DNA of 42,735 nucleotides from a virus. Within the stretch, counting starts at the first letter, position 1. Each line of letters opens with the position of its first letter. This document shows positions 33,990 through 42,735 of this stretch, piece after piece. The stretch lies in the IMG/VR virus record IMGVR_UViG_3300020215_000087, positions 1-42,735 of that record, one strand, 5' to 3'. The translations under genes and the position numbers were made by a program. Below the pieces are notes generated by a model. It was given only the letters and a program-made list of their open reading frames with translations, searched no databases and was not told the DNA's origin.

Positions 33990-34433
33990 TCAGGCTAGAA
34001 AGGCCTTTGCGTCGAATGTCGGACAGTCCTTCAGCCATTCGCTTTGCTCGACTGTGCCGTCACCGTCTATGTCGGGTGATAAGTCACGATGTCCAAGAAC
34101 TTCGGCTTTAGGGAACTGCGTTAACAGTTCGCGCAGAAGAATCTCAAGGGCCTGGAATTGGCGGAAGGTGAAATTGCATTCAGCTTTGCCATCCTGACCA
34201 ACCCCGCCAACCATGCAAATCCCGATACTACCGGTGTTGTGGCCAGCTACATGGGCGCCTGCTATCTCAATAGGGCGGCCATTCTCACGCAATCCATTAC
34301 GCCGGATAACGTAGTGATACCCAATATCCCGCCAGCCCTTTTCTTTGTGCCACTGGGTAATCTCGGCCTCTCCGATATTCCGGTCGGCTTTCGTGGCGGA
34401 GCAATGGACAACGATCTTGGTTATTGGGCGCAT
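33990..34433 (-). CDS. N-acetylmuramoyl-L-alanine amidase endolysin
   Basis: 147 residues, T7-lysozyme-like amidase_2 domain. Zinc ligands are recognisable: H in IVVHCSAT, H in VLGHRDLSPDIDGDG and C in DCPTFDAK; catalytic Tyr in GYHYVIRRNG and the H in AGAHVAGHN region complete the site. No signal peptide, so it needs a holin. It cuts the amide between MurNAc and L-Ala. ATG 34433 is chosen; the frame is open to a TTG at 34466, but that would pass through the 22-bp-spaced repeats. Confidence 0.9.
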   Translation of the reverse strand: MRPITKIVVHCSATKADRNIGEAEITQWHKEKGWRDIGYHYVIRRNGLRENGRPIEIAGAHVAGHNTGSIGICMVGGVGQDGKAECNFTFRQFQALEILLRELLTQFPKAEVLGHRDLSPDIDGDGTVEQSEWLKDCPTFDAKAFLA

Positions 34434-34489
34434 AAGGTTGACAATAACCCCGCTTAAGGTTGCCAATGTTTCGGCTTAAGGTTGACAAT
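34430..34489 (-). repeat. Three 16-bp direct repeats, 22-bp period, before the amidase
   Basis: On the minus strand ATTGTCAACCTTAAGC occurs at 34474-34489, then ATTGGCAACCTTAAGC at 34452-34467 and ATTGTCAACCTTATGC at 34430-34445. Starts are exactly 22 bp apart (two helical turns), and the last repeat contains the amidase ATG. They could bind a regulator as DNA or as RNA in the late leader. Confidence 0.85.
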
Positions 34490-34560
34490 CGAAACGCAAT
34501 TGGAGCGGCCCTACGCCCACTTGAAATACATCTCATGGGTTTCACCGGTAACGGGCCGCA

Positions 34561-34607
34561 AAGACAAAAACCGCGAATGTTGCCCATTGTTAAGAGGGGT
34601 CGCGGTT
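34561..34607 (-). terminator. Intrinsic terminator inside the late leader (tR'-like)
   Basis: Minus strand: AACCGCGA (34600-34607) and TCGCGGTT (34569-34576) form a perfect 8-bp stem with a 23-nt loop, followed by TTTGTCTT. It lies between the late promoter and the amidase, so late transcription must read through it. Confidence 0.7.
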
Positions 34608-34639
34608 GGTGAATTGGGAAATTTTTTGGAAGCGCCGCC

Positions 34640-34664
34640 GTTACCGAGCGGCTGAGCGGGTAAC
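34640..34664 (-). promoter_or_regulatory. Hairpin at the 5' end of the late transcript
   Basis: GTTACC (34659-34664) and GGTAAC (34640-34645) on the minus strand can pair around a GC-rich loop. With the predicted start near 34667 this would be the first structure in the RNA, a natural recruitment site for an antitermination factor. Confidence 0.5.
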
Positions 34665-34673
34665 AATTCAGTA

Positions 34674-34701
34674 ATTATGATTGAGTTTGAGAATAAATCA
34701 A
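34674..34701 (-). promoter_or_regulatory. Late promoter (pR'-like)
   Basis: -35 TTGATT (34696-34701), 16-bp spacer, -10 CATAAT (34674-34679), minus strand. The -35 overlaps the RfaH-like gene's stop. It faces the amidase and all late genes. Confidence 0.6.
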
Positions 34702-35192
34702 GCACTTAGCGGCTCCAGTTGTTTTCGTGGAACCTCTGTAGGAACCGCGTTCCCCATGATGTTGAACAGAACAATAATTCGATCAAACTTCTTTGCTTGT
34801 ACAATTGCCTCGTACCCTTCGAAGGGGCCTGACTTAATTCTCACGGGATCGCCGGGAGAATAATCCCGCTTCGGGATAGTATGGATGCCAAGACTGTCTT
34901 CTTGCTTCCTTAGCATTTCGATCACTGAATCATGGACGACAGCAGGCCAAAGCCCGGCCCGAACCATTGCAACCACCCCGGGAGCTTTCAGGACCGGTCG
35001 AAAGTTGTCCTCACCTGGAGCAAGGCGCACAAAGGCATATCGCGGAAACATGCATTCTGTTTCCTTGGCAACCGATCTCCTCCTATCAACCCAAACCAAA
35101 GGGCAATAAGTTTCGAAGCCCTGGACCCTTAAGCTTACCGATACCGGAATTTCCGACTTAATCTTAGTCTGTACGCAATACCAGTTCTTCAT
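34698..35192 (-). CDS. RfaH/NusG-like transcription antiterminator
   Basis: 164 residues (RfaH: 162). An NGN domain (about 1-100: WYCVQTKIKSE, QGFETYCPLVWV, ECMFPRYAFVRL, KAPGVVAMVRAG) and a C-terminal KOW domain (about 118-164: YSPGDPVRIKSGPFEGYEAIV, FNIMGNAVPTEVPRKQLEPL, each cited in part) follow RfaH more closely than NusG. Such factors bind paused RNA polymerase and prevent termination in long operons. Last gene of the early minus-strand operon and directly upstream of the late promoter and terminator, where lambda encodes Q. Confidence 0.88.
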   Translation of the reverse strand: MKNWYCVQTKIKSEIPVSVSLRVQGFETYCPLVWVDRRRSVAKETECMFPRYAFVRLAPGEDNFRPVLKAPGVVAMVRAGLWPAVVHDSVIEMLRKQEDSLGIHTIPKRDYSPGDPVRIKSGPFEGYEAIVQAKKFDRIIVLFNIMGNAVPTEVPRKQLEPLSA

Positions 35193-36026: not shown

Positions 36027-36327
36027 TTACCCTCCAGCTCTCTCAGGCGTTGTATCGTTATCACCGTGCGCTCCTCCTCGCCTTGCTCTTGCGAGAACGT
36101 AACGCTTTTGACGATTTCGCAGTTATCGTCGTCAAGTACTCCTGCCTCAACGATTCCATCAATTGCAGCTTTAGCCGATACCCCGTCTGGGTCAGTTGGC
36201 CTCTTGCGTACTGAATGGATATGGATACGTACTGCTTGATCACCGAATTCACAAAGCTCCGCCTGTGGTAATGCATCCGAAGAAGCTGGTTCCAGGTCGG
36301 GAGCGGTATTGGTATCTCGATTCTCAT
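36020..36327 (-). pseudogene. rusA: RusA-like Holliday junction resolvase, frameshifted
   Basis: The N-terminus reads in one frame from ATG 36327 (MRIEIPIPLPTWNQLLRMHY, a RusA-like start that overlaps the preceding gene by ATGA). The conserved acidic C-terminal core reads in the frame one base upstream: KRPTDPDGVSAKAAIDGIVE, then GVLDDDNCEIV, ending at 36020 next to the phosphatase start. The D-x-D, D and DDD residues are the RusA active site. So one indel separates the two halves; no slippery heptamer is seen. It is a mutation, a sequence error, or an unusual shift. Intact, it would resolve recombination junctions. Confidence 0.65.
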
Positions 36328-36641
36328 CCAATTTTGATCAACCCCTTTTCAATCATGCGGCGCCAGGTGCGGACCATTGCACGCAGCGTAAACGCCTCAA
36401 CATTTGCCAAAAGAATTCCTTTCGGTCTATTTCTGCCATCCAAAAAGTCATGGCATGCAGAACAACCATAGGCCGAACAGAAGTCATCAGACTTCCTCCC
36501 CATCCCGTGCGATTCATCCGGCAAATGGCAAAGCACGGTAGTCTCCGGGTTGCCATTGCACACACCGGGTATCTGGAAAGTACATTCTTCCCCGCGTGCG
36601 CTATCCCGCAACTTCTGGCTCCGGATTGGTTTCGATTTCAT
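36324..36641 (-). CDS. DUF1364 protein (ninX/YdfU-like)
   Basis: 105 residues from MKSKPIRSQKLRDSARGE. DUF1364 pattern: ARGEECTFQIPGVCN, ETTVLCHLPDESHGMGRK and YGCSACHDFLDGRNR with paired Cys/His for zinc. Lambdoid and other phages keep it beside ninB and rusA; a nuclease role in recombination is suspected. Starts in a TGATG junction and overlaps rusA by ATGA. Confidence 0.8.
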   Translation of the reverse strand: MKSKPIRSQKLRDSARGEECTFQIPGVCNGNPETTVLCHLPDESHGMGRKSDDFCSAYGCSACHDFLDGRNRPKGILLANVEAFTLRAMVRTWRRMIEKGLIKIG

Positions 36642-36691
36642 CAGCATATGGTCTTCTGCTTCCGCTTAGGGGGTTTGGTTAGCATGCTCAT
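36641..36691 (-). CDS. Possible 16-residue coupling peptide
   Basis: MSMLTKPPKRKQKTIC: starts in an ATGA overlap with the membrane gene upstream and ends in the TGATG start of the DUF1364 gene, filling the gap exactly. It may serve only to pass ribosomes between genes. The longer frame to 36823 is a shadow of the membrane gene. Confidence 0.35.
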   Translation of the reverse strand: MSMLTKPPKRKQKTIC

Positions 36692-36843
36692 ACACTCGGC
36701 TTCGGGCAGGCCCGCATCCACCATATCGCCAGAACCAATTCGCCAAGCACCAGCCAGCCCGTATGCGCCCACCATGCCGTGAGCGAAAGAAACACGGCAG
36801 AGCCAACAAGCCAGCCAATCCAAAGTCGTTGCTTATAATTCAT
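36688..36843 (-). CDS. Tryptophan-rich small membrane protein
   Basis: 51 residues (MNYKQRLWIGWLVGSAVFLS...) with two membrane helices (about 7-25 and 29-43), Trp-rich. Starts in an ATGA overlap with ninB. Another frame over the same DNA (36641-36823) is less protein-like. Function unknown. Confidence 0.6.
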   Translation of the reverse strand: MNYKQRLWIGWLVGSAVFLSLTAWWAHTGWLVLGELVLAIWWMRACPKPSV

Positions 36844-37238
36844 CCCCCAACCCCTCCCGGTAACAAATATTCAACAGGGACGCCCAATTCATCCAACAGA
36901 AACGGCTCAAGCTTTTCATCAAATAACTTGAATTGTTTCTTGGTCATCTTCCGGCTCGCGGCGTCCAAGTAAAAAACCTCCTCTCCAATCGTTACCGCTC
37001 TAGTCCCCAGAATCTTCCGCTTGCAGTACACGTGCAAAGCCTCGGGCGTAGATTCGTATATCCCGGCGTTCCGCAAGTACTGGCATGCTCCCTGTATCAG
37101 CGCCCAATGGCGAGCGTTCTGGGTTATGGTCCGCTGGTCTCCTTCCTCTATCTCGATCCTCAGCGGCTTATCAGTCTCAAGGATTCGCTCCACGAGTTCG
37201 GATTTCTGGCGGTGGTTGGTGACGAAGTGGACTGTCAT
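36840..37238 (-). CDS. ninB: NinB (Orf) recombination mediator
   Basis: 132 residues. The RTITQNARHWALIQGACQYL helix (about 33-53) and a C-terminal KMTKKQFKLFDEKLEPFLLDELGV block (each cited in part) match the NinB family (lambda Orf). It loads recombinase onto ssDNA, replacing host RecFOR in phage recombination. Shares ATGA overlaps with the genes either side, next to DUF1364 and rusA, forming a nin-like cluster. Confidence 0.85.
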   Translation of the reverse strand: MTVHFVTNHRQKSELVERILETDKPLRIEIEEGDQRTITQNARHWALIQGACQYLRNAGIYESTPEALHVYCKRKILGTRAVTIGEEVFYLDAASRKMTKKQFKLFDEKLEPFLLDELGVPVEYLLPGGVGG

Positions 37239-42515: not shown

Positions 42516-42671
42516 TCAATGTGACCTTAGAGGCCCTCTGTAACCCAAAAAATTTTTCATCCCCTTGCTTAGCAAGTCGGCGGCGATTTCTTCCACCGAC
42601 TTTCCTTCTTTTTTCGCTATTTTCTTCAATGCCTGCATCGTCTTTTTATCAAGCTGCACTTCGAGTTCCAT
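42516..42671 (-). CDS. Small ribbon-helix-helix-like protein (allele B)
   Basis: 51 residues, same as 2758-2913 except for the last two residues (SH in place of PN). It lies across the point where the cassettes become identical. See the allele-A entry for the fold. Confidence 0.65.
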   Translation of the reverse strand: MELEVQLDKKTMQALKKIAKKEGKSVEEIAADLLSKGMKNFLGYRGPLRSH

Positions 42672-42735
42672 GTAGTTTCACTCCGAGGGACTCTTGGCCC
42701 CTTGCCCCGTTTCCGCCCGTTTGTATACTTGCCTC
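42610..42735. repeat. Right-end copy of exact 126-bp match
   Basis: Identical to 2852-2977 (offset 39758). The window stops here, inside the RHH gene, and would continue at 2978 on a circular map. Confidence 0.9.
42649..42735 (-). CDS. RHH regulator, 5'-truncated by window end
   Basis: Encodes only the last 28 residues (EASIQTGGNGARGQ...) of the RHH protein fully present at 2891-3127. The missing start lies beyond the window, or equivalently at 2978-3127 on the circular genome. Confidence 0.8.
   Translation of the reverse strand, partial: EASIQTGGNGARGQESLGVKLHGTRSAA

Follow-up and report, generated by a model that had tools for sequence, protein, structure and literature searches.

Gene order at the early/late junction

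The window, that is, the whole stretch of 42,735 nucleotides that was analysed, holds a P22/lambda-like phage: Pfam and PHROG profiles identify Erf, an exonuclease, an integrase, NinB, YbcO, TerS, TerL, the portal, and the major head protein. The record looks like a circle of ~39.8 kb (2978-42735) to which a 2.85-kb branch (1-2851, with a ParB-like gene) has been joined by assembly, because an exact 126-bp direct repeat is shared by an internal stretch (2852-2977) and the right end (42610-42735).

The features at the junction of early and late genes are given here in the direction of transcription; L018 and L174 are two relatives of the window that are described below.

34698-35192, minus strand: RfaH-like NusG paralogue (164 aa) that closes the early genes and holds the Q position (profile matches and structure model)
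34674-34701, minus strand: promoter-like site TTGATT-16-CATAAT, recognised by its pattern, overlapping the stop codon of the RfaH-like gene; sites at the same place and with the same spacing in L018 and L174
34607-34667, minus strand: leader between the RNA start, as placed from the -10 box, and the abiF-type hairpin
34569-34606, minus strand: abiF-type hairpin (Rfam RF03085; L018) with outer stem AACCGCG/CGCGGUU, bulged A, inner stem CCC/GGG, loop CUCUUAACAAU, and 3' CAA
34558-34570, minus strand: terminator-like U-tract UUUUUGUCUUU following the hairpin; in L018 the corresponding letters are UUUUGUC
34429-34494, minus strand: three 15-nt direct repeats ATTGNCAACCTTAAGC with 22-nt spacing, the last overlapping the ATG of the endolysin gene
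33990-34433, minus strand: amidase endolysin, first late gene (Pfam Amidase_2, 1.4e-14; PHROG 822, 7e-60)

In the layout of lambda and P22 known as PR'-tR'-Q, Q is the last early gene and is followed by a promoter, a short leader, a terminator, and then the lysis and late genes. The window has a layout of this type, with a regulator as the last early gene, a promoter (recognised by pattern and position only), a leader, a terminator-like hairpin, and lysis genes. The first-pass annotation had assigned the RfaH-like gene to the place of lambda Q, and this is borne out by its neighbours on the same strand: NinB (36840-37238) and YbcO (36324-36647) lie upstream, and the endolysin, TerS, TerL, portal, and coat genes lie downstream. 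The case for a promoter-leader-hairpin architecture with an RfaH-like gene in the Q position is strong.

What kind of protein has taken this position? Pfam and PHROG searches give no match to a Q family for the window regulator, and place it in the NusG family instead (Pfam NusG, 1.2e-13; PHROG 6386 'transcription antiterminator', 1.3e-25). It was first described as closer to RfaH than to NusG, which agrees with its NCBIfam scores of 104.2 bits for RfaH (TIGR01955) versus 43.3 bits for NusG, although the equivalog cut-off for RfaH, 144.5 bits, is not reached. Cellular relatives in gammaproteobacterial metagenome-assembled genomes are 37-42% identical to the window protein, and the cellular relatives L002, L003, L004, and L007 reach 145-162 bits with TIGR01955. 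A single-sequence scan of IMG/VR found no close relatives. In a structure model of moderate confidence (pLDDT 77) an NGN domain is joined by a beta KOW domain. The C-terminal domain, which in RfaH folds as an autoinhibitory alpha-helical hairpin, is modelled as beta strands, with moderate to low confidence in that part, and the best Foldseek matches of the model are NusG and RfaH. The earlier remark that a clear ops element, the recruitment site of RfaH, is missing also holds, since the leader has none and ops-like sites occur across the window at chance frequency (36 versus 30.7).

The late promoter proposed at 34674-34701 exists as a site and is placed as in L018 and L174, but it does not stand above chance by itself: two promoter-like sites were found in the region where 3.3 are expected. 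Its weight therefore comes from TTGCTT-16-TATACT, which lies at the same place in both relatives. An RNA 5'-end hairpin had also been proposed at 34640-34664 (GTTACC...GGTAAC). The letters are there, but the hairpin is not conserved and has no statistical support, as the leader folds no better than shuffled sequences (z -0.53).

The three phased repeats are real and their 22-nt spacing is exact. No further mismatch-free copy of ATTGNCAACCTTAAGC occurs in the window, and the repeats are not present in L018 or L174. There is no obvious ribosome-binding site at the endolysin start, which the repeats overlap, and they are a possible operator.

An abiF-type RNA in the leader and its toxin-free relatives

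The hairpin at 34561-34607 had been read as an intrinsic terminator. It is real, it is the strongest element of the region, and a U-tract follows it, but judged by homology it is an abiF-type RNA and is unlikely to be a terminator only. A simple terminator scan misses it because of its long loop. The Rfam model for abiF RNA (RF03085) matches it over the full length (positions 1-37 of 37) with 25.5 bits, which is under the gathering cut-off of 37 bits; the E-values are 0.018 in a 361-base search and 0.0091 in a 181-base search. The abiF RNA features that are kept are the outer stem, the bulged A, the 3-bp inner stem, the loop CUCUyAACrAU, and the CAA. The inner stem is CCC/GGG in place of AGC/GCU, typical members having NGC/GCN. 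A covariance model was built from 23 hairpins chosen for full pairing, with the window and its close subtype left out, and its sole match in the window is the hairpin (30.4 bits, E 1.4e-6). In this set, which was selected for stem pairing, the covariation score is 0.749 versus 0.178 for shuffled sequences. BoxA-like letters in the loop (CTCTTAACAAT) had been considered, and were dropped once the abiF match and structure had been found.

AbiF belongs to the HEPN ribonucleases and is related to ancestors of Cas13; its antitoxin is abiF RNA (PMC12373285). A Clostridioides difficile prophage carries a whole AbiF module, whose RNA, RCd22, is transcribed from a promoter of its own as an sRNA of ~100-130 nt; RCd22 contains two abiF motifs, binds AbiF directly, and in this way neutralises it in trans (PMC12373285). 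As a positive control, RF03085 was searched against 299 Pseudomonadota genomes, of which 17 have matches with E<=0.01, two of them above the cut-off. Nine open reading frames beside some of the bacterial matches were tested: five, of ~330 aa and directly downstream of the hairpin, are all Abi_2 (E<=1e-49), and the other four, beside three matches, are not. The Abi_2 genes include some beside bacterial matches that score below the cut-off. One bacterial abiF RNA above the cut-off (L154, ~1500-1536) lies by a type I restriction gene, and the two neighbouring reading frames tested there are not Abi_2.

No Abi_2 (abiF) gene is present in the window. The core of the window subtype (CCC/GGG) was found in none of 399 Pseudomonadota genomes; thus, no matching AbiF is known for this subtype.

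How common are such hairpins in phages? The loop pattern used to search IMG/VR combines the letters of the window with those of the Rfam consensus; loop identity in the resulting set is therefore by construction, which does not apply to the outer stem, the tRNA adjacency, or the absence of Abi_2. The pattern occurs in at least 119 stretches. Counting the window and L018, at least 100 hairpins combine a correctly placed outer stem of five or more pairs with one or more inner pairs. Among the matches listed, 40 of 98 phage hairpins (without the window and L018) lie no more than 20 nt from where a tRNA gene of the same strand begins, compared with a mean of 1.35 and a maximum of 6 in 200 trials of random positions; 31 of these 40 tRNA genes, again among the matches listed, are tRNA-Arg. 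The loop pair Y:R, which was not selected for, is concordant in 98/98 of the matches listed, and a U-tract follows the hairpin in just 13/98 of them. No Abi_2 gene was found in the 50 phage records with a hairpin among the matches listed, many of which are fragments. In each of seven isolate phage genomes an abiF RNA scores 44-58 bits, which is above the Rfam cut-off, and Abi_2 is absent from all seven.

The contexts of these hairpins are diverse. The exact window loop with the same inner stem and another outer stem is found in four IMG/VR contigs, inside permuted tmRNA genes. Permuted phage tmRNAs with a hairpin of the window subtype in the intervening segment are seen in L033 (3543-3885), L035 (1334-1676, minus strand), L032, and L036. 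In T7-like Aeromonas phages an abiF-type hairpin lies between genes 8 and 9, in S-SZBM1 it lies in a tRNA array, and in Salicola phage CGphi29 (L182, 2501-2541) the abiF RNA lies between the last early genes and terminase, as in the window. Cluster J mycobacteriophages, which infect Mycobacterium smegmatis mc2 155, also carry abiF-type hairpins; like the T7-like Aeromonas phages, they are isolates that grow on laboratory hosts. For phage sk1, a region conferring protection against AbiF has been cited; neither sk1 nor 712, both lactococcal phages, has an abiF-type hairpin. Because abiF-type hairpins are common to phage tmRNAs and tRNA arrays, a role of the window hairpin as terminator only is unlikely. 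Transfer RNA arrays, tmRNA, and late leaders are all RNAs that are expected to be abundant.

An abiF RNA in cyanophage S-CREM1 was reported in 2023 as a motif common to three Rfam phages, and no anti-defence role was given (PMC9964418). In the literature searched, phage abiF RNA is represented by S-CREM1 and these three Rfam entries, without an anti-defence role (PMC9964418).

Early/late junctions in other phages

The same slot was compared in two relatives, L018 and L174, both from one metagenome sample. The L018 portal is 84% identical to that of the window; L174 was found through a 137-aa gene of L018 and its own copy is 86% identical to that gene. This gene, unrelated to the RfaH-like gene, stands in the place of the latter in both relatives, where the order is: the 137-aa last early gene, the promoter-like site, a leader, a terminator-like hairpin, and an endolysin-like gene. 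The endolysins differ from that of the window and from each other (DUF5675 in L018; peptidase-like, as read from the sequence, in L174). L018 carries a 52-nt stretch that is 92% identical to window 34560-34611 (E 3e-15), with one compensatory change in the stem and flanks that hardly align. The hairpin in the L174 slot is a canonical intrinsic terminator of 10 bp followed by U6.

This exchange of regulator, hairpin, and endolysin around a stable layout supports a promoter-leader-terminator switch, and the plain terminator of L174 indicates that an abiF-type hairpin is not needed for late control. The 137-aa protein has no match in Pfam, PHROG, or phages. It was considered as a Q homologue and set aside, as there is no family match and the structure model is too weak (pLDDT 46.8); "Q-like" therefore describes its position only.

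Is a NusG paralogue at this position peculiar to the window? Six rhizobial-type phages have a NusG paralogue as the end of the early genes: the Sinorhizobium phages phi2LM21 and phi3LM21, Rhizobium phage PPF1, Mesorhizobium phage vB_MseS-P1, Agrobacterium phage Rivra, and Nostoc phage Nsp-JY10. The gene directly before it is of replication or helix-turn-helix type in these six. Terminase follows within the next four genes in phi2LM21, phi3LM21, vB_MseS-P1, and Nsp-JY10, and PPF1 and Rivra have the same gene order as far as the record end. A hairpin and then a T-rich run lie within ~250 nt after the paralogue in five of the six, the exception being vB_MseS-P1. The co-occurrence of such a gene with a terminator before the late genes, which the first-pass annotation had proposed to look for, is thus seen in this lineage. 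The same annotation had called a NusG-family late switch unusual: its layout is supported, but the arrangement is not unique, since NusG paralogues recur at the early/late junction of rhizobial-type phages.

In this lineage a conserved structured leader lies directly after the NusG paralogue (L014, 8517-8745; L015, 8499-8735; L175, 4490-4730; L177; L178). It has the common stem GCCYTGA..TCARGGC, in which pairing is kept through changes, and is a candidate loading site for the paralogue. No convincing Rfam match was found for this leader, none being above noise on its strand, and the two loci searched for an abiF-type hairpin, L014 and L015, have none.

A probable late switch and a putative decoy antitoxin

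An RfaH-like NusG paralogue is likely, on the basis of its sequence and position, to act as the late switch of this P22/lambda-like phage, in place of Q. The promoter at the end of the RfaH-like gene (34701-34674) would give a short leader RNA of ~100 nt that ends at the hairpin and U-tract near 34560. Once there is enough RfaH-like protein, it would load on RNA polymerase in the leader and allow it to pass the hairpin into the endolysin and late genes. The terminated RNA would bear a free abiF-type hairpin, and both before and during late transcription it may also serve as a decoy antitoxin, binding AbiF of the host and so weakening abortive-infection defence. The identity and position of the gene, the conservation of the slot, the homology of the hairpin, and the absence of an abiF gene are shown by the analysis; from these we infer promoter activity, termination, antitermination by the RfaH-like protein, and the putative role of the leader RNA as a decoy against AbiF. 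A decoy antitoxin would be the simplest reading of the toxin-free abiF-type hairpins of phages, as for pseudo-ToxI (PMC3475682) and Racrs (PMC10651486). That the hairpin combines both roles, a leader terminator passed with the help of the RfaH-like protein and a decoy antitoxin against AbiF, is a reading to which we give about even credence. The wider proposal, that toxin-free abiF-type RNAs are generally phage inhibitors of AbiF set in abundant RNAs and that here such a decoy is fused with a late terminator under an RfaH-like protein, is more tentative and falls somewhat short of an even chance.

Could the locus be an ordinary late switch of RfaH-like protein, promoter, and terminator, whose hairpin is abiF-like by descent and no longer binds AbiF? 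The plain terminator in the L174 slot would fit, as would the changed inner stem of the window subtype and its score below the Rfam cut-off. A conserved loop is not required for a terminator, however, and the 11-nt loop, bulged A, and CAA have been exactly kept between phages with differing flanks and neighbouring genes; we regard this explanation as rather unlikely. It is less probable again that the hairpin belongs to a stand-alone decoy sRNA gene that lies by chance between early and late genes, with the RfaH-like protein at work in other places, such as the entire late operon, where it might counter Rho. Such a gene would resemble RCd22 in its size and separate promoter (PMC12373285), and abiF-type hairpins do occur in many unrelated contexts. 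Nevertheless, L018 and L174 have the promoter at the same place and a terminator-like hairpin in both, while the abiF-type hairpin is found in L018 only, and the succession of NusG paralogue and terminator-like hairpin recurs in phages.

The existence of a prophage with the whole AbiF module (PMC12373285) could suggest that the hairpin is a remnant of a lost module, or otherwise neutral, or a trigger for the host that AbiF-type toxins sense. Remnants would be expected to decay and triggers to be lost, yet the stems covary in the 23 hairpins selected for stem pairing and the loop pair Y:R is kept in all 98 of the matches listed, in many phages without a toxin gene, which makes this very improbable. 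The least credence is given to the view that the RfaH-like protein is a moron product or a host-takeover factor and that another, unrecognised regulator turns on the late genes. In keeping with this view, the protein is a presumed antiterminator and the ops search came out at chance level, but the RfaH-like gene occupies the Q slot, where NusG paralogues recur independently.

If the combined reading is true, disarming AbiF and gating late transcription under the RfaH-like protein fall to a single hairpin, so that the phage's own stop signal may also disarm an anti-phage defence. With a NusG paralogue acting in the Q position, RfaH-type control would reach beyond host surface operons to the late genes of phages, with protein and leader forming a simple two-part system. 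The abiF-type hairpin points to a general class of phage RNA, so far unrecognised, whose members would imitate the AbiF antitoxin; Cas13 presumably descends from the AbiF group.

How does the locus compare with known systems? As in Q control of lambda and P22, the last early gene is followed directly by a promoter, and then come a short leader, a terminator-like hairpin, and the lysis/late genes; the locus differs in that the regulator is a NusG paralogue without resemblance to Q and the hairpin is of the abiF type. Similar to RfaH, LoaP, UpxY, ActX, and TaA, the window protein has NGN and KOW domains, its closest NCBIfam family is RfaH, and one long operon is the presumed target of antitermination; unlike them, it is phage-encoded, scores below the equivalog cut-off, and has no ops element in its leader, and the presumed target is a phage late operon. 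The rhizobial-type genes are alike in that a NusG paralogue is the last early gene, with a terminator-like hairpin in five of six, but they belong to another NusG subfamily (~25% identical) and have their own long structured leader.

With abiF RNA (RF03085) and RCd22 the window hairpin has in common the outer stem, bulged A, 3-bp inner stem, CUCUyAACrAU loop, and CAA; it differs in the CCC/GGG inner stem, the U-tract that follows, the setting in a late-operon leader, and the lack of a toxin gene. Pseudo-ToxI of phage PhiTE (PMC3475682) and the Racr RNA anti-CRISPRs (PMC10651486) are likewise phage copies of a defence RNA without the protein, whereas the putative target of the phage abiF-type hairpins is AbiF. 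The PhiTE pseudo-ToxI mutants arose in selection (PMC3475682); by contrast, abiF-type hairpins in phages are natural and widespread.
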